In this document: one piece after another, positions 9,245-51,161 of the stretch | How positions within the stretch are numbered: the first letter of the stretch is position 1 | How the letters are laid out: every line of letters starts with the position of its first letter | NCBI GenBank assembly: GCA_019843655.1 | Contig: JACDQD010000002.1 | Location: forward strand, 18,561,154 to 18,625,153 | Source of the DNA: Lethocerus indicus | Lineage: Eukaryota > Arthropoda > Insecta > Hemiptera > Belostomatidae | Direction: 5' to 3' | Length of the DNA: 64,000 bases | Program-made: the position numbers and the translations under genes | The notes under the pieces: generated by a model | What the model was told of the DNA's origin: nothing | Seen by the model: the letters and a program-made list of their open reading frames with translations, nothing else | The model's database searches: none

Positions 9245-13400
<4,156 letters not shown>

Positions 13401-26215: not shown

Positions 26216-29200
26216 TCATTCCTTTAAATTGATACTTCCTAATGAAATTTCCTCCGAACTAGGGTTTGGGATTATCTCAATTTCTTTCTCCTCTATACTC
26301 TTGGTGGTGTCTGCAAATAATTAATATTAATAATTATTATTAATTCCCATGTTATTCTGGTTTAGATATCTAATAATGCAATCAGTACAAATGGCGTGGT
26401 TTTAATTCAATTTAAACAGAAAGTTTTATATTCTTCATATATATGACAACACAAGATTCTAGAAAAGTGAATTAGGAAAAAATCTTTTGTCACCTCAAAT
26501 AAATGAAATTTCTAGCGGCAAAAGTTGTCAAGTGCCTTGTGGAATATTACTGCTTTATTTTTTCTCAGCATTTATTTTCCATGTGCATGTGTGCCCATGC
26601 CGATATGCGCATGACTCCTTTATTATAATTTGATGGTTATAAGAAGTTCTCTTTTATGTTTCTATTTTTTTTAAGAGTAGTCATTTTTTTACTAATGGTT
26701 AAGCTATGAAAACAATTGGGTTTATATTCCTATTTCTTAATAAATTTATTTAATAGTTTTTGTGTTAATTTAGTTGAGTGCATTTATTTATTAGGACATA
26801 ACACCAAGAAATAAATTGAGGACAATTTCATTCATTACGCACCAGTATTTCCAGGGCGATTTAATTTCCTCTTCATGCAACCATACCAAGTTATCAATAT
26901 AATTGAGAAGGTTAGCATCGTAGCTCCAAATGGCATGAAGTATTTAACATTCAGCCCTATACCTGAAAAGCAGTAAATTGCCACTTAGAATGTATCAAAA
27001 AATATCACATTTTTACCCAATTCGTTTAAAAGTGAAAAGATAAAAAATAAATACATGTACAGTACGTTAGTCCACTATGTTTGTGTGTCATAATTATTTA
27101 ACAAGAACAAACAGATAGCTAAGGCACTAAAACGGTTGATAAATTAGAACGGAAACTTGGTAACATTTATCGTTGAGTCTACAGCATTCTATCTAAGAAG
27201 ATTATAACAGTATAAAACTATCTAACAGTAAAAAAACATATTTTTGTCAGACTTTTAGTAGATTGCGTAACAGCGACTTACGTTCTTGTACTAAATTTGG
27301 TACATCACCAATAGTCTCCAAATATAAAAGTAGTTCACCCCTCAAATATTGCATCTTTCTGAAATAAAATAAATAGCTATTGTATAGGAAATGGTACACA
27401 TATGGTAAAACTGCCGTGCGTATGAATGGAATCATTGACATTCGTAGACACGTACTTCGCGTACCGCGTACCATATCGAATGAATCAGAAATCGGTTGAT
27501 GTATATATAAGTGGGGGGTCAACTGTTCTGCATTTGAACCATGTAATATAATTAAATATAGATTGAATTAAGTATTAAATATAGATATAATATTATTATC
27601 ATGATATAATTATACACTATTTTAAGAATTAATCAACGCAACTGAATCAATAGTTCATGCACGAAGTACGTTCTTCGTGTGAGACATCCAATTAATTTTA
27701 ACGAATTGAATTAAAAAAGGGAAAGAACATTCTGTTCAAAGTAACCAATCACCAGTTCATTCGGTGTCATCAGTTGCTTTACCTCTTGACAGTCTCTACC
27801 TAATACCACTTACAGCAACAAATCATTAGCATCTTGTGTGGTGAAAATAAAATCAAACTATGACTGTGATTTTGCTAGTTTCAGAAGTAGTTTACAATTA
27901 TATTAATATATACACATTTGTAAGGGAAAAGCGTTATACTAAATCATTTCCAAAATTCAAGCCAAAGTTGCTCGAGGATCTGAGACGAGTTGCGATCGTG
28001 AAAAATTAGTTTTTTGATTTCTTACAAATTTGTCGGTAAAGAAGGACACATACTTTTAGACAGTGAGAACGAATGCTATTTCAGTAGCCGGTGCTTAATA
28101 CTGTTGTCATTATATATAACCTTTAATTTATTTTCATTTATATTAAGTCATTTTTGTCTTCTGTTTATTGGATTTGAACGTTAATATCAATTAGTAACCA
28201 TTACTCATAACCAAATTCTAACAAACTGATAATCGTTCAAATCAAACTGGGACCAGACTAGAATCTATTATTATATTGCGTGAGTACATTATGTTAAATT
28301 TATAGAAAATTTTACTTATGGAATTTAAAATCATAATGCAAATATTCCGATTTTATTGAAATAATTTAATAGAATATATGTGAAGGGAATTAGTTAAGAT
28401 TCTCATTTATACAAACCTTGATCCTACAATACATAGTTGTACACTACAGCTGTCTATATCTGATTGACCGACTTCTGGAAGTTTAAGAATTAAATGGAGG
28501 TCGGTAATATTATAATTAATTTCTTCGGATAACTCATGATTCCTGTAATTACATGCGAATGCAGTAGAGTTCTGTTCATAATCTGTGTCGTTCCAAGATG
28601 CCGAATCATCAGTTTTGTTGACCCGGCTGTCATAGCATGAGCATAAAAAAATAACATTGTACAAATTAGCCTGATTAGGGAGGCAATTCAAGAAAAATCC
28701 ACTGATACCGCTGTCAGTCCGTTGTTCTGGGCATAGTTCATTGGCTAATTTCGTGATCGAAGAACAGGTTTTTTTAATGTCAACTGTGTTATTAATCTGC
28801 ACAAAATAATAATCTTCAAAGTCGTTTACCAAAACTGCGTCTTTTATAGTAATATTTTGAAGAAAGTATTGATACGAATCAAATCCATTAGTCGCGGGAA
28901 TGCACTCCGTATTATTTAATGGATTTGTGATGTACCCATCCTTACAATTGCAAATATTTGGTAACGCACATTCACCGTTCAGGCAACCAGTCCGGCAAAC
29001 AGGGTTGTCTTCAGTAGTATTGCAACTATGAAATGAAGAACTCAAGTCTGGAGCAATGCATTTACCGGTGTCGCAAGGTACCGAACATATTGGTACGCAC
29101 ATGTTATCATCATTTGAAAATGCATAACCTTCCCAGCATGTACATTTATTGGGCTCTGTGCAGTTACCGTTCTGGCATTTAGTAGAACAGATTGGCTTAC

Positions 29201-32200
29201 AATAATATGGACCGTCGGGTTCGTACCCATGGAAACATACGCATTCATCTGGGCGAACGCACTCTCCGTTAATACAAGAAGGTTCGCACACGGGGATACA
29301 TATACTTTCATTGTAAAAATCTCTATCGTACCCAACGAAACACTCGCATAAATCTGGAGCTACACACACACCATTGACACAGGTTTCATTACAAATAGGT
29401 GTGCACTCGTAATCGGACAGTTTTTCATACCCGTCGAAGCATTCACACAGATCTGGCTGTACACATTCACTATACAGGCATCCATAAGAACAAATAGGCA
29501 CGCATAAATATTGCGTGTCATTCAGTTGGTACCCTTCGTTGCACTCACATGTATCAGGAGCGATACATAAACCGTTGAGGCACTGTTCTGTGCACGCCGG
29601 GATACACTCGTTGTCATTCTCTTCAAGTTGAGTATACCCGTCTAAGCAACTGCATTTTTCCGGAGCTATACATATTCCATTTATACAAGGCGTTGAACAG
29701 TGTGGAATACATCTGTTACTACTCTCCATTTTAAAGCCTTCAACGCACTCGCATGTTTCTGGTTTCACACAGATACCATTTATGCAGTCTTGTTTGCATA
29801 TTGGTTCACATATATTAGTCGTCCCTCTTAGTTGGTACCCTTCGTTGCATTCACATTTATCAGGGGCTATGCATATTCCGTTCAGGCAGGGTTTTGTGCA
29901 CACTGGGAGACAATTGTTCTCGGTTCCTTCATGCGCATATCCACCTAAGCAACTACATTTCTCTGGCGCTACACATTCTCCATTTATACACGGCATTGAA
30001 CAGTGTGGAATACATCTGTTACTACTCTCCATTTTAAAGCCTTCAAGGCACTCGCATGTTTCTGGTTTCACACAGATACCATTTATGCAGTCTTGTTTGC
30101 ATACTGGTTCACATATATTAGTCGTCCCTCTTAGTTGGTACCCTTCGTTGCATTCACATTTATCAGGGGCTATGCATATTCCGTTCAGGCAAGGTTTTGT
30201 GCACACTGGGAGACAATTGTTCTCGGTTCCTTCATGCGCATATCCACCTAAGCAACTGCATTTTTCCGGAGCTATACATATTCCATTTATACAAGGCGTT
30301 GAACAGTGTGGAATACATCTGTTACTACTCTCCATTTTAAAGCCTTCAAGGCACTCGCATGTTTCTGGTTTTACACAGATACCATTTATGCAGTCTTGTG
30401 TGCATATTGGTTCACATATATTAGTCGTCCCTCTTAGTTGGTACCCTTCGTTGCATTCACATTTATCAGGGGCTATGCATATTCCGTTCAGGCAAGGTTT
30501 TGTGCACACTGGGAAACAATTGTTCTCAGTTCCTTCATGCGCATATCCACCTAAGCAACTGCATTTTCCGGAGCTATACATATTCCATTTATACAAGGCG
30601 TTGAACAGTGTGGAATACATCTGTTACTACTCTCCATTTTAAAGCCTTCAAGGCACTCGCATGTTTCTGGTTTTACACAGATACCATTTATGCAGTCTTG
30701 TGTGCATATTGGTTCACATATATTAGTCGTCCCTCTTAGTTGGTACCCTTCGTTGCATTCACATTTATCAGGGGCTATGCATATTCCGTTCAGGCAAGGT
30801 TTTGTGCACACTGGGAGACAATTGTTCTCGGTTCCTTCATGCGCATATCCACCTAAGCAACTGCATTTTCCGGAGCTATACATATTCCATTTATACAAGG
30901 CGTTGAACAGTGTGGAATACATCTGTTACTACTCTCCATTTTAAAGCCTTCAAGGCACTCGCATGTTTCTGGTTTTACACAGATACCATTTATGCAGTCT
31001 TGTGTGCATATTGGTTCACATATATTAGTCGTCCCTCTTAGTTGGTACCCTTCGTTGCATTCACATTTATCAGGGGCTATGCATATTCCGTTCAGGCAAG
31101 GTTTGTGCACACTGGGAGACAATTGTTCTCGGTTCCTTCATGCGCATATCCACCTAAGCAACTGCATTTTTCGGAGCTATACATATTCCATTTATACAAG
31201 GCGTTGAACAGTGTGGAATACATCTGTTACTACTCTCCATTTAAAGCCTTCAAGGCACTCGCATGTTTCTGGTTTACACAGATACCATTTATGCATCTTG
31301 TGTGCATATTGGTTCACATATATTAGTTTCTGGTTTTAGGGCTATGCACATACCATTGTTCTCAGTTCCTTCATTATCCATGCAGTCTTGTGTGCATATT
31401 GGTTCACATTTATGCAGTCTTGTGTGCATTATATATCTTTAGTACCCTTCATGGGGCATGCATATTCCATGTGCACACTGTAACATATGCAGTAATCTGG
31501 TGCCTTGCAATCGCATGTTTCTGGTTTTATCCATATTTGCAGTCACATGTATTATTATCTTTAGTAATGTATCCATGGTAACATATTGGGGCACAAACAG
31601 GGAGAACATAGGCCGTCGCCACCAGCTATACTTTTATATCTTGAACAGCATTGTCGTTTTATTTTTGTGGTATAGTAAGTCTGGAATAATATAATACAGT
31701 TAACATTTGTATTTCTTTTAATTTATATTAAATGAATAATATCTAATAATTAATATGTAATATATGAAATCAGTTTTACTGAATATTTTTATATTCATTT
31801 TTATATTTGAATGTATTTATTATCCTAGTCTCGGTGTTATCTGCTTCCGACTCCGGAACTCTTACTAGGTCCATCATCAGAGTCAGACCGAGGTGTTGGA
31901 AGTAAACGTTTTATAGTTGAGCATGTAAAAATATTTAACTTTAGGCGAATGAGATTTTTTTTGAACTATGATGTTTTGCACGTTTAATTTGCGGCCTATC
32001 GGAACTTAGGTGCTGGATGTTTTGTATCAACGCGGTAACAGAAAGAAACTATTTTATCAGTGACCCTTATTATACGTCATATCCAATCGGGTTAAAGAAT
32101 TAGAGACGAGTTGGACCCTGGTGATAGAATCAGTTACGAAACGTTGGAAGCAGATAATAGCCGAGAGGGCATGAGAAGGATAAAGCAAAAACCCTTCCAG

Positions 32201-33100
32201 TTAAGTTCGCTCAGGTGGTTCCCGAACACAGGAAAAATCCTGTATAGCAGGGAGCTAACCGAGGTGCTTCCCACAGTATTAAGCGATCCTACATTGTATC
32301 ACATTACATTACACTACGCTACACTGCACTACACACTCACATCACACAATCAAATTTCATTAAATTACCATATATTAATAATTTGATTACATAACATGTT
32401 TAGTGCAGTTATGATTCAATATATAAAACTTACATTAAACAATTAAAAGGAAAAATACACGTAGTTGATCTCAGTTGAAATAGAGTTCTTATTTAACAAT
32501 GTAAAATTTAGAAAATGTGAATTATAATGTTAACCAGCGCGTAAAATCATGTATTTGTTTTAATTAAAAATGAACGTGTACGTAGTAGTACATTTTGCCC
32601 AGTAACCTTTTTTTTAACCTTTTTTTATTTTTGTACAATCAACTACATGTAATTATGGGTACAACTGTGGAGTGTTTTCTTTTCACATGAATGTCTCGAT
32701 AGAAGAGACCACCCAATGATAGCACTTTTTCCACATGAACATTCCAGTAACCCAACGGCAGAATCTTATCCTGGTAATTGTGGTGTTTTAGACTAACGAA
32801 TTTACAGTATACATACCACTTCAGACCATTTTTGCGTATAAGCAACAGAAGACGCAATGCAATTGCGAGAGACTGAGTACCATGCACAGAATTCCCAGTA
32901 TGTTTTCTGGTATGACACCGTATAACTTCCCCAACGTGTATTGTGTATCCTTAAAATTTAAAAAGATAGGAGCAACTAATTTCTCACTTGTTTAATTGGA
33001 ACAAAATTAAATTTGATGAGAAGTAACCGACCTCGGATAATAAACTTACCGATCGGTCGTTGTACATATACCCGGAGATGATGTAACCGGATTCCATAAA
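26216..33100 (-). CDS. Nimrod-type EMI/NIM-repeat transmembrane receptor A
   Basis: Exons in transcript order: 33100-33050, 32949-32817, 31680-28417, 27358-27282, 26962-26843 and 26310-26216 (TGA). The signal-peptide exon was not found. The first two exons and the start of the third form an EMI domain: SPGICTTTDR, YTVSYQKTYWEFC, then RQCCSRYKS, the CCxGY signature with a glycine changed. The giant exon encodes NIM repeats of the form C.P.C...C.NG.C..P..C.C..GY; at least 15 are readable, many in a 303-bp three-module array. A non-repeat ectodomain (to LHLILKLPE), a transmembrane exon (MLTFSIILITWYGC) and a short acidic tail follow. Nimrod proteins are haemocyte surface receptors for bacteria and apoptotic cells. 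Frame is lost by one-base deletions at about 30561, 30863, 31100 and 31160, and 31330-31580 is scrambled, so the full protein cannot be read. The end exons join in frame (SRK) exactly as in receptor B, which is why they are assigned here. Confidence 0.8.
29640..31325 (-). repeat. 303-bp higher-order NIM array, receptor A
   Basis: The anchor atgcgcatatccacc recurs at about 29931, 30234, 30537, 30839 and 31140, giving spacings of 303, 303, 302 and 301 bp. One unit encodes three NIM modules in fixed order: TKPCLNGICIAPDKCEC, then TQDCINGICVKPETCEC, then STPCINGICIAPEKCSC. Units are nearly identical at the DNA level, including silent sites. Spacings below 303 mark one-base deletions. Confidence 0.9.
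31326..31583. other. Scrambled mosaic of NIM-array fragments
   Basis: Short pieces of the 303-bp unit appear out of order and partly repeated: tatgcagtcttgtgtgcat occurs twice within 60 bases, and there are stray pieces of ggggctatgca, gttctcagttccttcat and tctggtttta. Neither strand gives a coherent frame. Beyond 31584 the receptor exon becomes readable again (CC-R-Y motif of the EMI domain). An assembly junction inside a collapsed tandem array is the simplest explanation. Confidence 0.7.
31828..32185. repeat. Inverted-repeat (foldback-like) segment
   Basis: 31828-31885 contains agtctcggtgttatctgctt and tccggaactctt; 32105-32175 contains the reverse complement, cgttggaagcagataatagc and cgagagg, preceded by ctggtgatagaatcag. 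The arms are imperfect and about 60 bp long with a loop of about 220 bp. The element lies in the receptor A intron between its EMI exon and NIM exon. It is followed by a degenerate CATTACACTA-like simple repeat at about 32295-32345. Confidence 0.5.
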
Positions 33101-34800
33101 CTATCAAAAAATAATACCTAAACAAAATGGCATTTTATTGTTATATATCATATAAACAGAATTTTTACACCCGAAAACAAATTATACGATACTCACTAAT
33201 AGCGCTACTTGGCACATACTGCAAGCTATTTAAACGTTGACTGAAGCAAATGGTTAATACCACATTATAAACACTATCATCTCATCTTTTTCTATTTGTC
33301 GCAACTGGTTATTATCATATTAATTATCACTGAACTTTTGTCAGCAGGAGTAATTATCTATGGAAAAAACATTTATTTGCCATAAGGAAGTTTTTGAGAT
33401 TTAATTTTTGTGCTCTACTTATCATCACCAAAATAAAATTATTAACTTTTCAAGATTTAACTGATCAGAGGTTTATATTTCAAGAAGTCAGTATTCTGCC
33501 ACTCCATTAAAGCTGCATTGTCACCTTTTTAACAAACCAAATTTATCATAAAAAAATGACTAACAATATTTACAAAACAAAACAGATAACTTTCAATAAT
33601 AGTTACGGGCCCACATTGATTAAATTACTACTATGAACAATAAACTATCCCGATCGACAGTAGTTTTGAAATATATGACAATTGGAAATTTACAAATACA
33701 AATTTATTTTTTCCACAATATTTTTTCCTGTCTTAACGAAGATACTCAAGTATTGAATAATAAAATATTGAATTTGGTTGATGGAGAAATCCACACGTAG
33801 TTGAATTCAGGTATAGCTAACAGGAAGGGCTGGATTAAACGGATAAATATGTACATTTGCAATATCAAATCGAATACTAAAATATATTAAACTTTTCTGC
33901 ATTTCTTGCTCATAAATTATCATTCAAAATAGGATTAGTTATTTGCTATAAGTAATAGTGAACGAAGGGAGTAATCGGGGGGGGGGGAGAGTCCCCCACG
34001 TAAAATATAATTTCAATTACACCATATTTAATATGATTCTTTTTGCAAGTTTAAATTCAGTAAAACGATTATGTTATGAGAGCATTATCATTGACGATTA
34101 ATGAAAACGTTGTTTAAGAATTAAATTAAAACATTTGATGAGAAAATAAATTTATGTTTCTTTGAAGATAGTCAAGGAGCTATAGAAATCAAGGAGTCAG
34201 TCATTTGCTAGAATTTAATTGAAGGGCACAGCTAACCTCATTGTAGCCTTCTCTACAACGTGTCCCACCTTGAGGAAATATACAGCCTTAAAAGTAAAGT
34301 AATGTATTGGTATTTATAATGCATGTAATATTTACGAATTTTCTTGTTGCGTCAGTACATTCTCAAAATCTAGAATAAATAAAGTACATACCTTTATTAG
34401 TTATCTTGCTTTATTAAAAAAAACCTGTTTCTACTAAGGTAAGGGAGAGCATTGAAATCTATCTTTAACAACAGGAGGGCATTAAGCTTGAGTGTGCAAA
34501 TTAGGACGATTAATTTGAATTTTATAATCTAAAACATTTAAAGTTAAACACTTTTATTTCTTCAAGATATATGTTATCATAACAATAAATAGTATGTTGT
34601 TTGCACATTTGTTATTTGATACCATAAATTTAATTTCTTCTTAGTTACCTAATAATTTCTGAAACCTTTTCAGGCTAGTTTATTATATGAATGTATAATT
34701 GTCTGGGTTTTTCAATTTAATATCTTGTTTTTTTAACCTGTAACATTTGTACTGCTGATAGACAAGAAACTTTTTTTTAATTGTATGTTTCTTTCAGAAA
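33101..34800. other. Region between receptor A and the P3-like transporter
   Basis: It should hold the missing signal-peptide exon of receptor A (minus strand) and the 5' UTR exon of the transporter (plus strand; a splice acceptor ends at 34797). I could identify neither convincingly. A run of about 12 G residues lies at 33977-33988. Confidence 0.45.
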
Positions 34801-37800
34801 ATGCATAATCTTTGGCTCATTATTTTATTACAATTTTGGGTGGTATTATGTGAAGGAGCTTGGAACATTACATTTTTACCAACAGAGGAAGTAACAATAA
34901 ATGAAACTGAAACATATGTTCTAATGTTTTCAATCTATAATCCTTCTGAAACAGAAATTTCAAATGGAAAAGTGAAATTAATTGTCTCAGACCCTACTGT
35001 AGCAACTATAATGCCAGCTCAATATATTATTAAATCTGAGACATTGGAGAATTCATTTTGGAATTCCTCTTTCAACATAACTGGGAACTTTTTAGGACGC
35101 ACTAAAGTTAAGATTCACCTGGAATTATTCACAAAATCAGGTAACTGCAAGAATTACTTTCCATTCTAAGTTTTAACATTTAATGTTAGAAAAAATTCAT
35201 ATAATGTGATTTTGAACCGTTTTATGGTGTTCTGAAAAAAGAATTCTACACTATTCTTGGTACTTGTCAATTAGACCCTCCCTATGAGTAATCTGTTTAT
35301 CAACACTGTAACTTTCCCGTTTGACTGCGATATATCGAATAAAGTCTGCACCAACTTTATGACATATTTCAGGATAGTTGACAAATAACACAGTTTACAA
35401 AACAAACATTTATTCATAAACATTATTATTATTATATTATATTATTAACTTGGAAGTGATTCGATGTCGATATATAGATACATCGATTCATTCGATACTA
35501 AATGCCATGTTTGGGATAGTTGTTTACCCTCGGGAGGGGGTCTAATTGACAAGTACCCTATTCTTGAATGATCATATTATCAAATCTTTAATTAATTAAA
35601 TCGAAAGTACTCTCATAATTATATATTCATATTTATATAACTTATTTGTCTTTATTATGGACATTATATCTTGTATTTTCGTTCTAAATGCATATATGAT
35701 AGTTATAAATATATTTTTTTATTGCTGCCTTCATGGAGTTCTCAAGATTGCTATGGATGAGAGACTTTCAAAGTTACTTAATGAGAGTTTAAGTAACATT
35801 TCATCTTTAAATCATTAATGATTTTTCTTATAGTATGATGAACGTTTATTAAATTTCACAATATTTATTTGCCTATATTTTACTTTTCACAATTTCTTTA
35901 TGGGTTTTAGCCCTTGTTTGTATTTAGTAAGTGACAATAATTTTTGATATAAATTTATTTTGTTCATTTAGATGATGTAAAAGTAATAGACTCTGAAATA
36001 CTTGATTTCAAAGTACTACGAAAGCAAACTGTACTGGATAAAATGTTCACTATTTGTGTAATAGTGCTGGTCTCTATAATTTTTGTCAACTTTGGGTGTG
36101 CGTTGGATGTCACACTGTTAAAGCGTGCTGTTATAAAACCTATTGGTCCAGCAATAGGTCTTTTAAACCATTTCTTCTTACTCCCACTGGTATTGTATTT
36201 TTATTTTTCCTTTTGTTTCCTTTTTTATTGAAGACAATTGATTCATTAAAAAATAATTTGCTTTTCACACATTTCAGTAGGAGTTAATGTTGCACATTCC
36301 ATCTTACTTGAGTACCCATACAATTTTACTGCACTTCTAAAATAATTGATGCTGATGCCTAGCATGGCGTTTGGGATAGATTTAAAGTGTATAGTTTTTG
36401 ATAAATTTAAAAAATTCTTCCATTACATTTAAAAAGTTGTATTGAAATAAATGTATTATTGTAATATATATTAGAAATTCTTAGTACTTAGTATGTATTT
36501 ATAGTTAAGGCAATTTTCTAAATAACTAAATATTGAAAACTTTCAATCTATTTAGGTTTTATTAGGATGATTGATATTTATTGTTTAATTTACTATATTT
36601 ATTATGTATTGTACAATGTTATTTTATATGTATGAATGAGTTACTAACCAAAGTTTAAGTTAAATTAATTGCTTTTCATTAATGTAAACCATTTTTAGGT
36701 GTATTTGCAATCTCACAGGTTGTGTAAGCACCTACAGTTGTCTTCCATCCATCACTCTTTGTAGAAGGCATGTTGATTAAAAAAAGTCATTGACTGGCAG
36801 GGTAATTTTATAATTACATTTGACTGGGAAATTATATTTTGCTTGAATTAGGTTATTAGAATTGTCTTTATCATTTTCAGAAGTATTCATTTTTATCATT
36901 TTATTTTGGGAACCTCAGTGGCTCAGGGTGTAGAGCATGCATCTTGGGACCCAAAGGTACAATAGTTAAAAAATGCCCCATAAGCCATGGACTTAGGTTT
37001 GTGAGATATAGTATAAGTCAGAACTTAGACCACAGAGCTCTCTGGAAAAGGTCACTTACGAAGAAATTTACTAAAATATAACAAAAGTGAAATGTTATTG
37101 TGAAGGTTGTAATGGTGCCCAAATCAGAATGATTTCATTTTTAACATTTTAAATAATGTTGTTACTTATTTTCAATTAAGCCAGAATTATTTTGTATGCA
37201 TAACAGTAATTTTCTTGATACAGTTTTATTAGAAATAAGTTAATTTTTTAAAATTCTAATAATGGTACTTAGAAAAGCCAAATGTTTGTAAAAATCTAGG
37301 TCAGCTATGGAATGGGATTGCTGTTATTTCCAGGACAGGGAACCAAAGAAGCGGCATTGCGATTGGGGTTATTTTTTACTGCTGTTTCACCAGCTGGAGG
37401 CGCTTCTAATATATGGACCTATGCCTTGGGTGGAAATATAAACCTGAGTATTACAATGACAGCTGTTAGCACACTTGCATCATTTGGTATGTCGAAGGTC
37501 TAATTAATTTATTATTTGGAAACAATATAATACAATAGTCTGATGTAGGTACATTTATATTTTTTGTTGTTATCAATATTTTATTATGCAATTTCTTATT
37601 TTAACATACATTGTAAATGTAATTAAAATAAAGCAATTAATAAAGTATTGTAAATAGTAGTGCAAGGATTAAGAGGAATCCAACCTAGGTCTTAATCTTG
37701 CTGATGATATCACTATATATAAGCTGACCATAATTACTTGACAATTGGTTGGTTTTCCAAGCTAGACAAAGACAGTAATTAACTATTAATAATTATGGAA

Positions 37801-40800
37801 GAATTCAACAGAATTATTATATATACAATCAACTTTTGTAAATTGTAATTCAAGTATTAGGTAATGTAACTTAGGACCTCCATCTGGTGTATTTTATGGC
37901 AGGCATTCCTATCTGAGAATCTGAACTCACTTTCAAAGGAATCTTTAAATGTGTTTTAGGACTATCTTTATATTACACACACAAAATTACTGTCCTACTG
38001 AAATAATACATGGAGTCCTGCTGAATATGTTTAATTTTAATTTTGACTAAAATATAATAACAAACAACAAATATTAATATTATTAATTTGTTTGTATAAT
38101 GAACAAATTAATTTGTATTGCTAATAAGGACAGTTTAGATTTACATACTTTTGCTTATGTAATAGGTATTTCATGATGATCAAACAGTATGGCTTCATTG
38201 AATTTAATGTTGATAAATACATTATTTTTAGTTATGATTCCTCTATGGACTTTAACTTTGGGAAGAGTAATATTTTCAACGGGCACAATGGGTATACCTT
38301 ACAACAAGATAGCCACATCAGCTGTTGGCCTATTTGTCCCTCTTGCTATTGGATACATGATTCAGATATATTTAAAAAAAATCTCAAATATCATGGTCCG
38401 TATTCTCAAGCCCTTTTCTGCTTTCCTCATTGTATTCATTATTGTATTTGCCATAATTACCAATTTCTACCTGTTTCAACTTTTTACATGGCAGGTTAGT
38501 ATATGCATAATTATTATGAACAAATTATTTATTTTGTATAATAATTAAATATATACAATTTTATATTAGTGTTTCCTTAGAGTTATGATTGGAGTTTACA
38601 TATATTATTATTGAATTTTAATGAAAACATCATTGTTTTATAAATTATAAATATTAAAAACAAAAATTATTACACTCCTTACCAATATTGTTTATTTTTA
38701 TATACAAAGTCAATTAACCTTGTTTATTTTGTGAAGTAATTTTCAGATATGTATTACACTATACTACTTTGTAATAACACATTCATTAATTAAAACTTTT
38801 CAAATTAGATTTTGAAATACATTTTACATTCAGTCTGATATTCTTTGTGTTTTAATATTTAAATTGTATTAAACAGTATTTCATTTCTTCTTTCCTTCTA
38901 CAGATTTCTTTGGCAGGCTTTGGACTCCCCTTAATTGGGTATATAATTGGCTTAATATTGGCAATAGTTATAAAACAACCTGGTGTGGATACAATAGCAA
39001 TTTCTATTGAAACTGGTATTCAGAATACTGGAATTGCAATTTTCCTTTTACGATTTTGTCTTGATCAACCAGAGGCTGATCTTACAACAGGTACTGCGGA
39101 AATATTTAAATAATACATTGGTACCTTTTATATTATCATTGCTTAACAATTTTGTAGGAGAATTAATCCGTTATAAGTGAAACAAATTTTAGAATTTTTG
39201 AATTAATGATTATTTTATGAGTGCTATTATTGTAGGTCTTCTTTATTGTAGTACAAATTTATTATTGTCACTTGTGTTTTACAGCAGTAATTTCTATCTC
39301 CTCACTTTCATTTTATTTGTTTAGTGAACTTGAAGTTTCATTTAATGTGGAAAGTATTTTATTTAATTTATTTATCATGTCAAGGCTTTATCCATCTGAA
39401 ATACATGAGTTTAGACTTCAGTATGTTGTTTCGACTTTGTTATTTTCAACCGCCAGACACAATATTACAATTCCCCAGTGTGAAGTAAAAATCTAAATTA
39501 TATTAGACAAACATTTTCAAATTATTTCATGGAATACATCTTTAAATGTGTGATTACCAAATTAAACGTTGAGATTTGTTCCCACACTAAACTTTATTCT
39601 GTGGGCCTTCCAGTTGTTCCTGTGAGTGTGTCAATGATGACTCCTTTAGCTCCTCTTGCCTTATTATTATGGCTGCGGCCTGAAAAAAACAGAACGGTTG
39701 AATACCAATTATTGCGCGCCATGTAAGGTAATGAGAAAACTGTAGGTTCGTGATGTTTCTGTCTCCTCTCGCTGGTTTGGTCTTTTGCTAGACCGGTTTC
39801 GGCTGCTCGCCATCTTCAGTAGCGGTGTTAGTCACTGTTAGCACTTTGGCACATTGTAATGAGAAAACCTTACAATGACTCATTTATATTTTTCTTCTCA
39901 TTGATGGTGATGGTTAATAATTACTAAATTTCAACTTGTTTAAGGTTTAAATTTCTGACCAAATTTTTATTTTTTTCTATTTTTATTTATAAATTACTTA
40001 TTCAGATGCCAGGATGTGTCTCAGGTAGCAAAAATTTGTTATTTTCATTCGTTTTGTACTCATGTACAAAATATATCAGTATAATTAGGATATATTAGTG
40101 TAATCAGAATGAAAAGCACACAGTCGATAGCGCGGTATATTATTAAATTAAGTAAGTCTAACCTAATTAAGGGAAAGCTATTACATTATAACATTACATT
40201 AATTTCATTTTTTAAGATACATTATTAATACATAATTAATCATTTATGTAATCATTAATTAATCATTTATCATTGAAACATTTTCCTAAAAAAAATTAAT
40301 CCGGAATGACTGAACTTTTATTTTTTGTTGTGTAATTTGTGAATCTTTTATGTTTTTATTTTTTCTGATATATTGAAAGTGAGTCTGACACAACTTTAGT
40401 CTTTAATTTGCGCTAATGCACACATGTCTTAAAGTTACCTTTTGTTTTATTTGAATGATACTTCACAGTTCAAATGTATATTATATTTTGAGTTTTTTTG
40501 AATTAATCTTTTTGATAAGTGAGTGAAGGTTTCCGTGACCTGAACTTGAATTGTCACTAGTATCACTGACAGCTTCCGGTGAGTGAAATCGTGGTGAAAT
40601 CCCGGAACAGTGGGGGGTCAACCCTTGCCTAACAGATATTCTTCCCAACATCAAGCTGCAATCTCACTGGAAGCCAGTCAGTGATACTAGTGATAATCTG
40701 TTTTAAATTCTAATTTAAAGAAAATATTAGTTTAGATGATTTTTTGGTTATACCCTATAGTTAGTTAGGGTTTAGTACTGGTATAAAAAAAATGTACAAT

Positions 40801-41072
40801 TCTATATCTTATACACATTATGAAATATGTAACTAATTTTTATTATGATATTTAGTAATAATAATAATAATATTTTATTCCATTTTTTGTACATAATCTC
40901 ATGGTGTTGCCTGTTTATGAGTAATTTAAAGCACTCTCATTAATTCAAAATTTATGCAGTTGCTCCTGTTTCTGTGGCCATTATGACACCGGTCCCATTA
41001 ATGATTTTTTATCTGGTGAGAAGATTCCGAGGTGATCTTAACCATGTTACTCTGCCCATGGATGATAAATAA
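34801..41072 (+). CDS. SLC10 family (P3-like) sodium/bile-acid-type transporter with two alternative last exons
   Basis: Common exons: 34801-35140, 35972-36189, 37300-37486, 38232-38494 and 38904-39090. They can join either terminal exon A (39614-39726) or B (40960-41072). Both terminal exons are 113 nt, start in the same phase and end in a stop, so each isoform is 435 aa. The ATG at 34801 lies 3 nt after a UTR splice acceptor and begins a signal peptide (MHNLWLIILLQFWVVLCEGA). A glycosylatable luminal domain of about 120 residues follows (several N-x-S/T), then a multi-pass BASS-type core with GCALDVTLLKRAV, SPAGGASNIWTYALGG.NLS and AISIETGIQNTGIAIFLL, the conserved signature of the family. 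A long N-terminal ectodomain plus this core is the layout of P3/SLC10A3-type members, whose substrates are poorly known. The fold is clear; substrate and location are not. Confidence 0.9.
35259..35557. mobile_element. hAT-like MITE, 299 bp, with 8-bp target duplication
   Basis: The left end ggtacttgtcaattagacc is matched exactly in reverse complement at the right end, and similarity continues through a CTCCC stretch, giving terminal inverted repeats of at least 19 bp. The flanks carry the direct repeat ctattctt at 35251-35258 and 35558-35565, the 8-bp target duplication typical of hAT elements. The interior has no reading frame, so it is non-autonomous. It lies in the first coding intron of the transporter gene. 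Confidence 0.88.
36907..37040 (+). repeat. tRNA-derived SINE-like copy 2
   Basis: An A-box-like segment (gtggctcagggtgtagagc) is followed about 45 bases later by a degenerate B box (ggtacaatagtt) and a tail with gccatggacttaggtttg, parallel to the copy at 2541. It lies in a transporter intron. Ends are approximate. Confidence 0.5.
39614..39726 (+). CDS. P3-like transporter alternative terminal exon A
   Basis: Follows the acceptor ccttccag. It encodes VVPVSVSMMTPLAPLALLLW, a basic patch (RPEKNR) and a tail ending LLRAM, then TAA. Its first residues align with those of exon B (VxPVSVxxMTP), and both are 37 codons. Exon duplication with mutually exclusive use is inferred. An alternative reading is that one copy is unused. 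Confidence 0.75.
39741..39855 (-). mobile_element. Dispersed ~115-bp repeat family, copy 3, with 13-bp target duplication
   Basis: The 115-bp insert is bounded by the perfect direct repeat gtaatgagaaaac at 39728-39740 and 39856-39868. It contains ggtcttttgctagaccgg, gctgctcgccatcttcag and cactttggcaca. A target duplication of 13 bp with no terminal inverted repeats points to LINE-machinery retrotransposition, so this is probably a short SINE or a LINE-end fragment. It sits 14 bases after the stop codon of terminal exon A. Confidence 0.8.
40551..40696. mobile_element. Foldback MITE, ~146 bp
   Basis: tcactagtatcactgac at 40554-40570 is the exact reverse complement of 40677-40693. The arms continue imperfectly inward (agcttccggtgag against ctcactggaagcc), giving about 30-bp inverted arms around an interior of about 80 bp. 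It lies between the two alternative terminal exons of the transporter. Confidence 0.75.
40960..41072 (+). CDS. P3-like transporter alternative terminal exon B
   Basis: Follows the acceptor tttatgcag. It encodes VAPVSVAIMTPVPLMIFYLV, an RRFRGD patch and a tail ending LPMDDK, then TAA. It has the same length and phase as exon A. Polyadenylation-like signals occur afterwards at about 41323 and 41469. Confidence 0.8.
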
Positions 41073-42160
41073 CATTTTACTGTCTGATGATGAGTTAAAT
41101 GGAATCATTGTCAATCTTCAAGTGCAAGAACAAACAATGTGTTATTGTAACACATTTCTGAAAATAGTTTTCTGAAAACAACTCAGCATGGTTATTGTTA
41201 TTTTTTCCAGTTATCCCTTTAAAATATAGACAATGTAAATATAAAATTATAATATAAAATATTTTATATCATGTTAATATTGAAATTTATATTATGATGT
41301 CTGTTGGGTATAGCATTTTGGTAATAAATCATTATTATGCAAGTGGAACTTTATATATGTTTCTTCTATATATGTGTTCTTTAATGGTTCTAGATAAGTG
41401 TGTAGAATATTCTAATTTAGATTGATCATTATTATATACATGTTTTATATCCACTGTAATTTAATAAGTAATAAACATTTTTTATTTTTATTTTAACTAT
41501 GCTTCTGTTCTGACATGTCTTGATTAAGCAATTTATTGTACAGGAATTAAGCATAATAAGACAATGAGTGATTAAAAAATCTGTCTTTATGTATTAGTTA
41601 AAATATTAAACATGTAAGTCTTTATAAATAATGGCTTCTTTTTTGAGATACATTAAACTTCTGAATTTTCATTAATCGTCTGATTTTCATTAATATTACA
41701 TGAGAATGTTGTAATAAAATTATTCATTTGCAATATTGAAACCAAATGATTAAAGTAAAAATGTAGCTCATGTTAATATATTTCTGTCATAGATGATATT
41801 TGTAATGATTGTGTATTACGTGATTAAATTTAAAGTCTACATTATTTATTCTTTAGGTGACAATAGACATGCGAAGTATTGTTAAGATAATAAGAAACAT
41901 CTTCTATTTAATATTTATGACTGGTGGAAATAGAATGACTGGGTAAGTTGAAAGGAAAGAAATGGAAAGCGAAACATTGTGTCAGTGTTAGTTACATTCC
42001 CTTCAATTCAGTGTCATTGGGTTCTAACCAAGTAGGTGGTTGATATAATAATAGCAATGTGCTATTATTTATTTCCAAAAACAAAAATGTATATATATAT
42101 TTTTTAGTAGATATATTTTTATGAATTATGATGTAGTAATTATCATTAGTAAGAAATTTA
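41073..42160. other. Convergent 3' region of transporter and receptor B
   Basis: AT-rich 3' UTR-like sequence between two genes that end facing each other. No gene was seen. Confidence 0.5.
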
Positions 42161-45100
42161 TTATTTATTTTGTGGCTTGTTATCCATGTCAGACATTTGT
42201 GCTTCTCCATTTAGTTCAAACTCATAGGCAGCATTAAGAAACCAAGTTTGTTCCATTTCATTACCTGTACAAAAAAATAATTATTGTATTATGAAAGCAT
42301 CAGTTTATATTTGTTGTTTGATTTAATTTATGGATAACAATTTTAAAATTTTAGATCATTTTGATCTCTTCCCTGGCTTTTTTACATCTAAAAATAACAG
42401 GGGTTATAAAATCATAATGTTATATGAAATCAAATTTAAATACTAAAAAGCAAGCAAATCTTATAAATGTTATCTTGAAAACAGGACATAAGGAATATGA
42501 AGAAATTGGGTGAATCTGCAATTTCCAGTTGTGAGAAAGTCTGAAACTTAGCGAAACCTCATTTATGATTTAAATGACCTAACTACAAAAGAGAACCTGA
42601 AGAAGACTCCCCTATCAGCCATGATATATTAGGTCAGTATTGGGTATATAATCTATAAATCTAATTATGTTATGTATTATTATTATTATTATTATTATGT
42701 TAATTATGTTATGTTTTGTTAGCTATATAATTATTTATATTTTTTACAACTTACTATGATTAGATATGTACTGCAACTTAATGCAGCTAATAGAGGCTAC
42801 AAATGGTTCTTGTAGGAACAGAGGTATAAAGAACATATCACCTGGTTTGAGAAATATTTTTGAACTGATATCAATACATTTGCTTGGATTCATTTAAGCC
42901 AATGCTCCATCTGAATTTACTGCTAAACTAGAAGGGAATCTTATTGAGATATCTTGTGACAATACATGGATAACAGAATTTAGCAGCATGGAATTAACTA
43001 AATTTTGGATATCAGTGAAAGTTGAATGTCCCTTTCTGAATGGTAATGCTCAGAAATTGCTAATTCTATCTGCGACTTATTGTTTTGTCAAACTTGGGTT
43101 TTTGGTGGTTTCTGTGGTTACAATTATGTATTCTGTGAAATTCCGTTTAGAGAAGGAAATGTGGTAGCTGTGTCAATTTGAGAAAGTGTGCAATCAGCAC
43201 GATCACCCATCTCACTAATTAAAATTAGTTGAATTTCAATTACATTTTTGTGATCTTAAATACATTTTTATTATTTAAATATATTTTTATCTAACTCCTT
43301 AATTAAAAAGAAATAGTTAATATTTCTCAGTGCACTTGATAGCCCTAAGAAATACTAGATTCAGCAAAAGTACCAAGAATTGAAAAAGTTTGGGAATCAC
43401 TGACACCATTATTATTATAATTCTAAATAAATTAAAGAATAATTAAGTAATGAATTTTACCTTTATTTTCATTGTCCCTTGTACTGCATGTAGGTCTGTG
43501 AACCAGACAAATCTTGTATGTTACAATTATTGTAACTGTCATGATTAATACTACTGCACCTAATATCATTAATAAGAACTCCTGAAATGAAATACTGCTG
43601 TGATAACCTAGAAAAATAAAAATACCATAAAGTTAATATTGATAATAATTAAAATATACTGTAATGCTGTATTAACCATTGTTAAAATATGTTACCAAGT
43701 AATGAATGCTGCAATTCACATGGAACAAATGATAGAGACACATATTTCTCAAAATAAATTCTCCTGAAAATGTACATTATATTTAGTAAATCAGACTGTA
43801 AACACTACTAGGCTTAATACAAAGCAGATATTGTTTAACTTACTTAGAAAGAGATTTGTGTAAACATAAACTGCACAAATCCTCTTCTGGTAGTAAATAA
43901 GACTCTGGAATCATCAGGATCAATTGCAAATGTGCACTGGCATTTTTATTTTCTATGGCATGATGGTATGAAGATATATTTTCATAATTGGTATAATTTG
44001 TGTATTCTTGAAACTGACAAATTACATTTGTCGTAATCTTTCCTTCTATATTAATTGCTATACATAATGCATTGATAGATTTAGGTTTACTAATTCCCAA
44101 ATTATTTTGAATTGATAGTAAGGAACATTTTACCTTAAGTGATACAACTGTCTGAAAAAGAACATCTGAAAACTCAATTAATTTGTTTCTTTGAATGACA
44201 CCATTGGAAATGTAATATTCTTTTCTATATTTTGAAAAGAAATTATTTGGGAAGTCTGTATAACTAAAACTTGTTGCATTGAAAAATTTAAATAATATAT
44301 TAGACTGGTGGGAATTGTTACAATCACATAATTCACTGCATTTGTTATTTTTGCATTCATTGTGACAACTAGACCAGCATTTTATTTCCCTTGAGTCATT
44401 GTTTGTACTTCCAACATAACATATACAATCTTCGTCATGTCCTTTGTAACATTTACATTCCTCTAGTTCAGTACATATATCAGTTTTACAATAAGAATTA
44501 GGAACAGGGTTGCATGTTTCCATTTTTCCTGACAGCACAAAACCATCAAAACATTCACATGTACCTGAAGGTGTACAAATGCCATTAATACATTTATTCA
44601 AACATTTTGGTTGACAGAAATTTGTGCTGTTCTCTTGTGGTTCAAACCCATCAAAGCAAGTACAATTTTCGGGTTCAGAACAATATGCATTTATACATTC
44701 ATCTGAACATATGGGGCTACATTTGTATGTACTGTTACCTTCTAAAACATATCCTTCAAGACAGGTACATACATTTGGAGCAGTACACGTGCCAAAAACA
44801 CATTCCAATGTACAAATTGGATGGCACACATCAAAGGAATCATTTGTGTAGCCTTGTAAGCACTCACATTTATGAGGGGCTGTGCATATTCCGTTCAGGC
44901 AGGGCTTTGTGCACACTGGGAGACAATTGTTCTCGCTTCCTTCATGCGCATATCCACCTAAGCAACTGCATTTTTCCGGAGCTATACATATTCCATTTAT
45001 ACAAGGCGTTGAACAGTGTGGAATACATCTGTTACTACTCTCCATTTTAAAGCCTACAAGGCACTCGCATGTTTCTGGTTTTACACAGATACCATTTATG

Positions 45101-48100
45101 CAGTCTTGTGTGCATATTGGTTCACATATATTAGTCGTCCCTCTTAGTTGGTACCCTTCGTTGCATTCACATTTATCAGGGGCTATGCATATTCCGTTCA
45201 GGCAAGGTTTTGTGCACACTGGGAGACAATTGTTCTCGGTTCCTTCATGCGCATATCCACCTAAGCAACTGCATTTTTCCGGAGCTATACATATTCCATT
45301 TATACAAGGCGTTGAACAGTGTGGAATACATCTGTTACTACTCTCCATTTTAAAGCCTTCAAGGCACTCGCATGTTTCTGGTTTTACACAGATACCATTT
45401 ATGCAGTCTTGTGTGCATATTGGTTCACATATATTAGTCGTCCCTCTTAGTTGGTACCCTTCGTTGCATTCACATTTATCAGGGGCTATGCATATTCCGT
45501 TCAGGCAAGGTTTTGTGCACACTGGGAGACAATTGTTCTCAGTTCCTTCATGCGCATATCCACCTAAGCAACTGCATTTTTCGGAGCTATACATATTCCA
45601 TTTATACAAGGCGTTGAACAGTGTGGAATACATCTGTTACTACTCTCCATTTTAAAGCCTTCAAGGCACTCGCATGTTTCTGGTTTTACACAGATACCAT
45701 TTATGCAGTCTTGTGTGCATATTGGTTCACATATATTAGTCGTCCCTCTTAGTTGGTACCCTTCGTTGCATTCACATTTATCAGGGGCTATGCATATTCC
45801 GTTCAGGCAGGGTTTTGTGCATACGGGGAAACAATTGTTCTCGGTTCCTTCATGCGCATATCCACCTAAGCAACTGCATTTTTCCGGAGCTATACATATT
45901 CCATTTATACAAGGCGTTGAACAGTGTGGAATACATCTGTTACTACTCTCCATTTTAAAGCCTTCAAGGCACTCGCATGTTTCTGGTTTTACACAGATAC
46001 CATTTATGCAGTCTTGTGTGCATATTGGTTCACATATATTAGTCGTTCCTTCGAGTTGGTAACCTTTGTTGCATTCACATTTATCAGGGGCTATGCATAT
46101 TCCGTTCAGGCAGGGTTTTTTGCACACGGGGAAACAATTGTTCTCTCTCCCCTCATGCGCGTATCCACCTAAGCAACTACATTTCTCTGGCGCTACACAT
46201 TCTCCATTTATACACGGCATTGAACAGTGTGGAATACATCTGTTACTACTCTCCATTTTAAAGCCTTCAAGGCACTCGCATGTTTCTGGTTTTACACAGA
46301 TACCATTTATGCAGTCTTGTGTGCATATTGGTTCACATATATTAGTCGTCCCTCTTAGTTGGTACCCTTCGTTGCATTCACATTTATCAGGGGCTATGCA
46401 TATTCCGTTCAGGCAGGGTTTTTTGCACACGGGGAAACAATTGTTCTCTCTCCCCTCATGCGCGTATCCACCTAAGCAACTGCATTTTTCCGGAGCTATA
46501 CATATTCCATTTACACACGGCGTTGAACAGTGTGGAATACATCTGTTAGTAGTCTCCATTTTAAATCCTCTAAGACACACGCATGTTTCTGGTTTTATAC
46601 AAGTGCCATTAATACACTGTGTACAGACTGGAAAACACTTATTTTCTTTTTCTGTATAACCCCGATTACATTTGCATTTTCCAGGACTTTCGCATTCACC
46701 ATTTGTGCAGTCTGTATTGCATATAGGAGTACATTTTAATGGGGATGATCGTGTTTGCTTATAGCCTCTACAGCAATACTCAATTTCCTTCTTTCTGAAT
46801 GTAATCTGTAACGGAACAACTCATTAAAATAATGCATTGATTCCCAAATCCCATATTTGTATTAATATTATCCAAGTGGTAGTAACAAGCATGATACAGC
46901 ATATTTGAATTGCAAAATTCGTGTATTCGACGGAATTCACAAAATTCTCAATAGGCGCTACGTGTCGAAAGAAATGAATGATGTCTTCTGGATTAAAAGT
47001 CGACAGCCTGGAGAACGATACCAGTTGCTTAAACAAAACAACCACCAAGAGCTTTTTTTGATCGTCCTCCGAATTTCTATTTTTAAAAGTCAAATGTATG
47101 TATATCCTTGTAATAGTATGTGTAGCCTCGTTAGGCTTTGATACTGTTTGACGCATCTGTATCAAATTTGATGCGTATATTCTTCGACACCCTGAAAAAA
47201 TACTGTGGTGCTTTCCACCCAACCATCCCTTAGTTAAGTCGAGTAAGGAGGAATAAATGCTCCCGTAAACTTCAAAAATGGTTCAAAAGTGGTTGTGTGA
47301 ATGAGCCATCTTGGTTCCTGAAAACGTTTGTGCGAATGAAACAAATTACAAAATTCAGGACCTGTTTCCGGGTTTTTTATTGGTGCATACAATTCAGTTA
47401 ACACTGTCGTATTTACTAGTGAGGCTCTGAACTATTCTACAGCCCCCTGGGATGCTGCCACATAATATTACATTACAAGTTGGGTCCATGAACATGCCAC
47501 TACAGCGCGTTAAAACACCCATACTAGTGAGAAAGCGTATTAATTCTGATGATACTGACAATACCAACGGATATGCCATCCAGCTTTAAAAACGAAATGT
47601 TTTGTGATAACAGTCCGCATTCTCTTCCCCAATGTAATTTCCCCACCCCGATACACTTACTGGCCGTACGATTCCTCCAAACTCCCGGATGTCCTCGACT
47701 ATTTCTTCTCCTTTAACAATCGTCGCTTACACCACTCTCTCACAGCCCTCGATGATCTTTCCGCCGATCACTTACCGGTTCTCCTTACATTAGATATTCA
47801 ACCAATCCTTAATCCTGAAATTCCTTCCTTAATAATGAGACCTACAGACTCGGATAGATTTCAACACTTGACAATAAAATAGAACTAAATATACCTCTGA
47901 AAACACCGCAAGAGATTTACCGCAGCCGACACTTTGACAACTAACGTACAACAAGCATCATAGGCATCGACCACTAAAACTAGGAGAATTTTTAAGGCGC
48001 ACGGAAGTATTAGTCCACTTACAATTCAAAAATTAATAACTACAAAAAGACGAGCCAGAGCCAAATGGCAAACCTCACGCTTACCGGCCGATAAAATAAG

Positions 48101-48740
48101 GTACAACTTACAATGCGGACTAGTAAAATCCTTACGGAGAAGATATAGAGAAGACAAATTTGACCACTATAGAAAATCCTCGAGACCAAGTAATAGATCT
48201 CTGTGGTCTTCTACATGAAAACTACTTTCCTACCAAACTGTTTCTTTTCTTCTCCGACTAGACCGCGCAACGTGGATTGTGACGGACGAAGAACCTGGGT
48301 TATTCCCCCAAATAATCACGGGAAGTTAGTGATAATTCATATTAATTTGGTTTATTTTGAAATGAATTCCATTATTCCGAGAATGAGAATCATTAATTAC
48401 GAAATAAATTCCCCCCGGAGGAAATCGGTGTTTGATTTTACACAAAGGATATATATAAACACATAGCGTTAAATACCTGCCATCTGGTTTGTGTCGAGTT
48501 GCTCACTTCCTGTTTCCTACAAGTTGTTACCGTACCGTAATATCTGCATGTAGACCAATACGTGCGCAGATACGTAATAGGGATAACTGATGGCTCTTGG
48601 ACACTAAAAAGGAAATTAAGATTATTTTTAGATTAGGTATTTAGTTGTCCGCATTCTGTGAACTGAAAGAGAATACCCTTACCGAGAATGTTTCGTGCAT
48701 ATACCCGAAGCCGAGATCGAAGATATCGACAGAGCGCTTG
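42161..48740 (-). CDS. Nimrod-type EMI/NIM-repeat transmembrane receptor B
   Basis: Exons in transcript order: 48740-48683, 48603-48477, 46805-43844, 43763-43696, 43607-43461 and 42264-42161 (TAA), with consistent phases; the signal-peptide exon is not located. The EMI domain is complete: ASGICTKHSRVQEPSVIPI, TYLRTYWSTCRYYG, then EIEYCCRGYKQ, the CCxGY signature that precedes NIM repeats. NIM modules follow (about 18 in the array, then several divergent ones such as CIAP-less CTAPNVCTCLEGY). A cysteine-poor ectodomain with many N-glycosylation sequons ends LQLILMIPES. The transmembrane helix is FLLMILGAVVLIMTVTIIVT, and the tail contains NAAYEFEL. By family this is a haemocyte scavenger/phagocytosis receptor. 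A single one-base deletion at about 45584 breaks the reading frame inside the array; both sides are otherwise open. A Jockey-type LINE fragment sits in the intron at 46806-48476. Confidence 0.85.
44880..46600 (-). repeat. 303-bp higher-order NIM array, receptor B
   Basis: The same three-module unit as in receptor A; the anchor atgcgc(a/g)tatccacc lies at about 44944, 45247, 45550, 45852, 46155 and 46458 (spacings 303, 303, 302, 303, 303). The odd 302 marks the frameshift. The two rightmost units carry shared variants (tctctcccctcatgcgcg). Confidence 0.9.
47604..48240 (+). mobile_element. Jockey-type LINE fragment (endonuclease end to pre-RT linker), decayed
   Basis: An open stretch encodes TYWPYDSSKLPDVLDYFF and LSADHLPVLLTLD, the C-terminal part of a LINE apurinic-type endonuclease (the P.DVLD and S.DHLPV blocks). 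After stops, a neighbouring frame continues with TTKRRARAKWQTSRLPADK and SLRRRYREDKFDHY, as between endonuclease and reverse transcriptase in Jockey-clade elements. No RT motif follows; it is a dead fragment in the receptor B intron. Confidence 0.75.
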
Positions 48741-51161
48741 CTAATAATATGAACTAAAACAGATATAAGTCAGTGATTAAATGGTAAAATTGGACGTACT
48801 CCTAGCGCAGACACATTAGGAACTCACAATTATCATTATTGAACTTTCCGACTGACCCCTGGTTACTAATGTCACATTCAAACACTTTCTGAAAAAAAAT
48901 GTTTCTCCTCCGGCAGCGCAAGCGTTCTGTTGTTTCTTGGGCATAGTGATAAACTAATCAAATTAAAGGCGACAAACTTATTCACAGTTGGTCCCGCTTG
49001 TCAACCGAAATTAAACTGCATTTATGCTAGACGAGAGAAATAGATAGTCAGCGAATTGCTAAAATTAGTGAAAGAATTGGTAATCAAAAAATATGTATAC
49101 AATATGTAATCAATAAACAAGAATACGTAATGAATGGTAATGGTAATGTAATGTCTGGTTTAAAGTGAAATTTAAAAAAATTGTTCTGATGTTAATAAAT
49201 GAAGACTTTTGACAATGCTTCGAAATCAGCAGAACGAAAGCAAACAAAAGTGGAGAAACAAAAATTTCCTTTTCATATAATACATCTGTGTTGGCAGTAA
49301 AAAATCAAATAAATGACCCAGATCATCAGATCTGATCCCAAGTCATTCTCTTAGCAAAGAGTGTAGTTAACATCCGCAGTATATACTCGGTCGAATGGTC
49401 AAAATCGTGGATTACCTCAAAAATAAGTTTTCAAAAATTCATTGATTTGTAAACTATATTAAACTAATTCATTCACACGGTGGTTCTCCAAACAACTAAC
49501 GTTTTATTGATTTGGACACTAGAAGTACACCACTACACAGTACACCTACACTACAGAGCATGTAACAATAAACCAGAACACTAAGAAGTATTGGAGCCAG
49601 GTACGAAGTAAGGGGTTCTTGCACAGACTGTTTGGTACAATCATGTGGCCGTGGGAAGATGAGAAAACACGAGTGATAATTGATCATGGGCGAAAGGCGA
49701 AACAGAATGGAATAAATAACAATATCTAAATCGCTAAAAGAGGTATTTCTGGGCTTATCTATCGCATCAGAAAAGTTCTTTCTTCGCTGTATTGGGCTTG
49801 GTATATCAGATACTGGGTTAGCTCTTGAGACTATTATAATAGCCATAGTTTGGTGTATATTTTTTATTATTGAAGACCATCGTACTCCAGGCTGTTTAGT
49901 TGTTGGCCAGACGGTTCTGGGGTCCTTATCTCCCACACATTTTGTAATATTTTCTATTGTATTAAACACTTTTGAATCAAATATTCGCCAAAATATTTAC
50001 ATTGGCTATGGAACTGAGATGGGAAAGGAACACACCCATAATTGTTATTTATTTATCATTTATTTAACAAACATACAAACCATACATAATATCGTACATA
50101 AAACTAAATGCATACAAAAAAGTAGTACATTTGAATGTTGAATCGAACCCAGGTATAACGTATTATTCATATACGTATATATATTATTCATAACTTTATG
50201 TCCTACGTCCTTATAAACGTTAGGTCTGTGTAAAGAAATTCAAAAGAAAAGTCCGAACAAACATGTAGGTATTGATTACGGAAATGTATTCCAAAAGTGT
50301 GTGCCAGAATATTTGTTGGCAGTTTCATTATGCAAAAATGGACTTGGCCAAACTATCTATAGATTAAATTAACCGAAAAAGGGGGGTTGAATGCTCCTAC
50401 TGGTATACTATCGCAAGCAGTAGCAATAATATAGCCATAACCAAACATGGTTCAACGCTAGCCGCCACGTTGTAAAAACCACCGTAGACTTGAAGGTTGG
50501 CAGTTTCTATGCTTCTCTTGCAATAATCTCCGTCTGTAACGATAGAAATCCCTTATTAGATTAGATTCTGATATATTAGAAAACTAAAACGAAGAATGAA
50601 AACAATACACGATTATCGTTATTACTGAACTCCAATTTTCACAACTTTCAGTCGAGTTGAGTAATTCTTTTCGTATTTCGAGCTGCCATTTTCTGCCTCC
50701 ATCATATATCCTATCCGCAACCCCAGCCGTGCTAACAACCCCGAAATCTACCACGTCACCCCACCTCCCCAAAAAAATATCACACGCAACCAAAAAGATA
50801 TCAGCACCAGGTCACAAGCACATTTGAGGTTTCCTCACCTATGGCATCCCTGGGCCCAGCAGTAAAATCAGCTTCCCTCGTATTCTTCAGAACCCCCGTA
50901 CACCCTGAACATCAGCTGAAATGGCAAGGGAAACTCCCCAGAAACACCAAAACCACAGGAACAAGAACAATAAGCCGACACCAACAACAACTGGGGGCAC
51001 CAAAACAGAAATAGGCTCTCTTAATATTTGCCCCTATAATCCTCTTAAAGGATCACACCCGCCCAACCATCACACCAACCCCTTCCGACAATCTGACTCA
51101 CACTTAGAAAACGGATTAACAAAATCCGAAGACAAACATAACCCCCAATAACAATAACAGA

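Follow-up and report, generated by a model that had tools for sequence, protein, structure and literature searches.

Eater, a Nimrod C-type receptor of Drosophila, reportedly contains internal NIM repeats that evolve in concert. Two genes of Lethocerus indicus, designated A and B in this study, resemble Eater in that tandem near-identical NIM modules are homogenised within the gene for a probable transmembrane receptor, and differ from it in that the homogenised unit consists of three modules and is common to two diverged genes. TEP1 of Anopheles gambiae is described as undergoing genetic exchange with neighbouring paralogues, with an 80-bp stretch exchanged between two allele classes (PMC2576239). 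A and B would share with TEP1 the exchange of sequence between paralogues in insect immunity, but TEP1 belongs to another protein family and the outcome was divergent alleles rather than matched arrays (PMC2576239). Conversion between immunity paralogues was also reported for APL1 of Anopheles funestus, a family with leucine-rich repeats, where it is credited with raising diversity (PMC9222773), whereas conversion in A and B would lower the difference between genes. NIM arrays shared between genes were not found in the literature searched by title and beginning of the abstract, a search whose scope largely excluded subscription journals.

The window, that is, the whole 64,000-nucleotide stretch analysed (positions 18,561,154 to 18,625,153 of contig JACDQD010000002.1), contains genes A (33217–26216) and B (48836–42161) on the minus strand, one on either side of a plus-strand transporter gene; all data come from one assembly with a single sequence of each locus. 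As the initial annotation had claimed, the two genes follow an identical exon plan. Each has seven exons in the same order, namely two short signal-peptide exons followed by an EMI-like, a very large NIM, a juxtamembrane, a transmembrane, and a tail exon. The exon borders, which were picked by eye, have GT-AG, and the intron phases computed from the exon lengths are equal (Table 1). The range first given for the pair, 26216..48740, was nearly right and left only the first coding exon of B slightly outside. In neither gene is the large NIM exon a single open frame as assembled, and the EMI label is weak, with a score under the Pfam cut-off in A and no match in B. A fragment of the transporter gene (37300–37500) matched the sodium/bile-acid symporter family SBF (PF01758) in Pfam with an E value of 6.3e-11, and SBF was absent from the other four of the five candidate transporter exon frames scanned. 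Elsewhere on the plus strand of the window, a 464-aa ORF at 12006–13400 held the C-terminal portion of an HSP70 protein (E = 1.6e-167 in Pfam), and a glycine-rich 380-aa frame with repeated VPVPYPV-type motifs at 61966–63108 had no Pfam match at E 0.01. An intron of B also contained a plus-strand frame (47559–47882) that by eye resembled part of a non-LTR retroelement endonuclease, likewise with no Pfam match at E 0.01.

Table 1. Features of genes A and B and of the region between them (positions in the window)
Feature	Position	Strand	Remark
Gene A exon 1, first part of signal peptide	33197..33217	-	borders by eye
Gene A exon 2, remainder of signal peptide	33050..33117	-	borders by eye
Gene A exon 3, EMI-like	32817..32949	-	Pfam EMI 14.3 bits, below cut-off of 25
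Gene A large NIM exon	28417..31680	-	first stop 39 codons in; open from 30569 region to exon end
Gene A juxtamembrane exon	27282..27358	-	
Gene A transmembrane exon	26843..26962	-	borderline hydropathy of 1.57 (19-residue segment)
Gene A cytoplasmic tail exon with stop	26216..26310	-	
Gene B exon 1	48828..48836	-	borders by eye
Gene B exon 2, signal peptide	48683..48753	-	
Gene B exon 3, EMI-like	48477..48603	-	Pfam EMI: no match
Gene B large NIM exon, contains CCRGY	43844..46805	-	one frame break, in unit B4
Gene B juxtamembrane exon	43696..43763	-	
Gene B transmembrane exon	43461..43607	-	hydropathy of 2.98 (19-residue segment)
Gene B cytoplasmic tail exon with stop	42161..42264	-	
Transporter gene between receptors	34762..39723	+	extent approximate, by eye
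Array A: units A1–A5 and first 97 bases of A6, period 303	29642..31248	-	
Array B: units B1–B5 and part of B6, period 303	44885..46568	-	
410-bp exact match, A side	30105..30514	-	
410-bp exact match, B side	45118..45527	-	
First 104 bases of A5, identical to B2	29938..30041	-	nine minority variants at 29995-29955
First 104 bases of B2, identical to A5	46162..46265	-	nine minority variants at 46219-46179
Stretch at 5' end of array A, scrambled and further on gapped	31180..31529	-	probable consensus error

The NIM consensus is given as CxPxCxxxCxNGxCxxPxxCxCxxGY (PMC4073527), and modules of this form, CLPVCTKPCLNGICIAPDKCECNEGY, were found in both genes. The CCxGY motif that precedes the first NIM module in the Nimrod superfamily is present in B as CCRGY. 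Gene A reads CCSRY instead, and these letters are possibly faulty because the part of the large exon in which they lie loses its frame after 39 codons. Nimrod C proteins are said to combine several NIM modules with a transmembrane segment and to lack a run of laminin-type EGF repeats. Both A and B contain many NIM modules, transmembrane hydropathy is clear in B and borderline in A, and a Pfam scan of three pieces matched no laminin-EGF family. The Draper type consists of an EMI domain, one NIM module, and then a run of EGF-like repeats; it was rejected for A and B, which have many NIM modules and an EMI score under the cut-off. A and B probably encode Nimrod C-type transmembrane receptors, and their family would suggest a role as phagocytic receptors on blood cells. 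A Draper-like gene, recognised by eye from CCAGY, one NIM module, and laminin-type EGF repeats in nearby frames, lies about 9.5 Mb from the window (G000:C2:9095345-9095479, L032).

An orthologue search with the juxtamembrane part of B found one Rhodnius protein, and that of A had no orthologue at E 0.1. By eye, the uncharacterised Rhodnius prolixus protein P0124 is like A and B in its signal peptide, TYW..C region, CCNGY motif, NIM modules, non-NIM juxtamembrane part, hydrophobic stretch, and tail; unlike A and B, it showed no tandem near-identical units on reading, and across half of the query it shares 32% identity with B. Among the 120 listed of the 160 homologues of A, one (P0033) reached 90% identity to itself in ungapped 80-residue comparisons at offsets of 30–449. 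Fourteen pairs of homologues were compared, 13 of them from the same species and one, a Helicoverpa pair, from two species. In 11 pairs, identity over at least 60 residues did not exceed 39.1%, and in the other three (Schistocerca, Lucilia, and Diaphorina) it was 74–88% over at least 520 columns, a level that would fit isoforms, alleles, or recent copies. NCBIfam gave no match, and the PDB matches were confined to stretches of fibrillin-1 and hedgehog-interacting protein.

Each large exon contains a 303-bp unit that encodes three NIM modules, and period-303 repeats extend over 29524–31327 in A and 44860–46601 in B. An anchor pattern located six unit starts per gene (31248, 30948, 30646, 30344, 30041, and 29738 in A; 46568, 46265, 45962, 45659, 45357, and 45054 in B), giving 12 units, A1–A6 and B1–B6. 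The claim that units match almost base for base between the genes applies to the inner ones, since A2 differs from B5 by two substitutions and one gap and A4 from B5 by four substitutions without a gap; it does not extend to A5, B1, and B2, each of which is 12 to 27 substitutions away from the other units among A1–A5 and B1–B5.

Synonymous and nonsynonymous divergence was calculated for the six of the 12 units that are full-length and in frame (A4, A5, B1, B2, B3, and B5), leaving out the frameshifted A1, A2, A3, and B4 and the partial A6 and B6. The mean dS was 0.147 between genes (range 0.017–0.297, eight pairs) and 0.153 within genes (range 0.051–0.269, seven pairs). The mean dN was about one fifth of the mean dS, and the array units are therefore under purifying selection. 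Outside the arrays, 10 of 41 aligned residues were identical in the EMI-like exon and 108 of 308 in the part after the array, with synonymous sites saturated in each case; in the transmembrane exon, 10 of 37 residues were identical and the dS was 0.99. Matches in blastn between the two genes (E 0.001 or better) were confined to the large exon, and the juxtamembrane parts have lost their match to each other (E 0.14); on these grounds we rejected recent whole-gene duplication. In a tree of 35 of the 38 modules, from which three upstream modules of A (31020, 30820, and 30718) were omitted, the gene label changed 10 times compared with 10.2 in shuffles, indicating that modules do not cluster by gene of origin; three sets of identical modules include both genes, and modules A06 and B06 were grouped with an SH-aLRT of 97. 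The unit-by-unit synonymous comparison that the initial annotation proposed thus gave what is expected of concerted evolution, namely equal divergence within and between loci and far more diverged flanks, and its view of old paralogues with young arrays was borne out.

Individual variants were also shared between the arrays. The longest exact match between the genes is 410 bp, and A4 and B5 are alike at 29 consecutive variable sites. A5 is identical to B2 over unit sites 1–104 and differs from it at 17 sites from 105 on. Within this tract, nine minority variants, several of them silent, occupy 41 bp (unit sites 47–87), and eight of the nine are absent from every other clean unit. A minority module in both genes had been pointed out in the initial annotation, and CSMPCINGECVAPEKC was indeed found in modules starting at 30014 and 46238, with silent variants shared. 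The dS was 0.017 for the A4/B5 pair and 0.162 for the A5/B2 pair despite the 104 identical bases of the latter. A runs test was swayed by clustered variants in B2, and A5/B1, a pair without a shared minority tract, also reached the floor p value of 0.0005; we therefore put weight on the shared variants and not on the p values. Private variants were present as well, at unit sites 248 and 276 in array A, common to A4 and A5, and at several of the unit sites 105–146 in array B, common to B1 and B2. Units have thus spread within each gene too, and exchange between the arrays is incomplete because each retains variants of its own.

Further copies were searched for in the genome. A DNA search of the 427-Mb genome with the large exon of A, which scores the best candidates and skips very common words, gave two matches, namely genes A and B, and no third array gene. 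A NIM-like pattern had no match in six 10-kb stretches covering 30 kb on each side of the window. A protein search with the front part of B gave 13 matches, of which 10 were in A and B and one was in the Draper-like gene; the remaining two (G000:C12:14672830-14673528, E = 2.1e-8, and C88:35747-36535, E = 2.5e-4) are weak and lie in stop-rich frames. Contigs C99 and C100 were considered as a second haplotype of the locus and ruled out, since the samples are exact copies of parts of other contigs (9962 bases of C99 equal to C4 and 10 kb of C100 equal to C9; L017-L020), and the assembly seems to hold some sequence twice. The prediction of variable copy number gained no support, as no second copy of the large exon of A was found and the assembled unit count is unreliable.

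The reading that we prefer, with a probability of roughly 65%, treats A and B as old paralogues, probably Nimrod C-type transmembrane receptors, whose NIM arrays evolve in concert through non-crossover conversion between the loci and spread of units within each gene. Within each gene, units would have spread through slippage or unequal exchange, and between the genes sequence would have moved at least once, recently, by non-crossover gene conversion, perhaps on more than one occasion. Either gene could template the other solely inside the NIM exon, where homology survives, and the outcome would be two genes with different ends that hold the same array, more alike and not more diverse. The initial annotation had proposed gene conversion or unequal exchange across about 15 kb. 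Between the loci, conversion is the better fit, since crossing-over at direct repeats would be expected to delete or duplicate the intervening transporter, of which one copy is seen at that place; interlocus crossover was accordingly set aside as the main mechanism, and unequal exchange is kept for events within each gene. The proposal that the arrays are a source of diversity gained no support, given the purifying selection on the units and the visible effect of exchange in making the genes alike.

Continuing exchange, which was also proposed, gained no support, since most of the data are explained by a rather unlikely alternative in which several units were transferred once, recently, as a block and then shuffled independently in each array. 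A block containing both common and variant (A5/B2) units would place the shared stretch in different contexts. The G+C content of the array (0.42) is near that of the following modules in A (0.433), unlike those in B (0.36), and this hints weakly at A as the donor; the hint is weak because the units are not independent and the EMI-like exon of B (0.457) is itself richer than the array. The A4/B5 and A5/B2 pairs look different in age, which argues against a single transfer, although variation among units older than the transfer could mimic such a difference. A far less probable explanation is that the arrays were amplified independently and kept alike by strong selection, with no exchange. The low dN is consistent with such selection, but silent sites are common to both arrays, including several in the A5/B2 stretch, and those of the flanks are saturated, so that convergence by selection was ruled out.

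The quality of the assembly bears on two further readings. In the large exon of A, the first stop lies ahead of recognisable unit sequence, and at 31529–31180 unit fragments out of order are followed by 150 bp with no mismatches and three gaps. A1, A2, A3, and B4 (four of the 12 units) are each one base short in a GGAAAAATGC run, which breaks the frame, and A1 shows additional losses. In the inner units, many 100-mers occur more than once in the window. These features would be expected if one array had been built or corrected from reads of the other, but we consider such an artefact improbable as the source of the sharing. The arrays are not copies, each having private variants beside its own flank; A4, A5, and A6 continue in frame into unique 3' sequence of A, B1–B3 and B5–B6 are joined in frame to the flanks of B, and arrays of about 1.7 kb would be short relative to long reads. 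Alternatively, the frame breaks could be mutations and A a true pseudogene whose decaying array still exchanges sequence with B. A4, B3, and B5 are clean although their non-unique 100-mers are as numerous as those of the broken units, so that poor placement of reads is not enough by itself to predict where the breaks lie; for this reason, and because the first break precedes the array, the pseudogene was kept as a rival, albeit an unlikely one. Against it, 717 codons are open in A from 30569 on, its other exons are open, B carries the same kind of break, and the final aligned 150 bp of the bad stretch are gapped but free of mismatches. With few substitutions beside the losses, consensus error appears likelier than decay. 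The copy number and reading frame of the arrays as assembled are unreliable; the sharing is independent of the broken parts and rests on units joined in frame to unique flanks.

If confirmed, concerted evolution between A and B would mean that this process, reported for NIM arrays inside a single gene, also links the arrays of receptor genes that have diverged. NIM arrays may be badly assembled, and without reads neither their frameshifts nor their unit counts should be taken as biology. As a more tentative possibility, two phagocytic receptors may share an exchangeable ectodomain cassette, in which repeated conversion over about 15 kb, past an unrelated gene, would hold a perhaps length-variable repertoire while the N-terminal, juxtamembrane, and signalling ends specialise. 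The finding, if confirmed, would suggest a constraint that keeps one array common to both receptors as the rest of each diverges.
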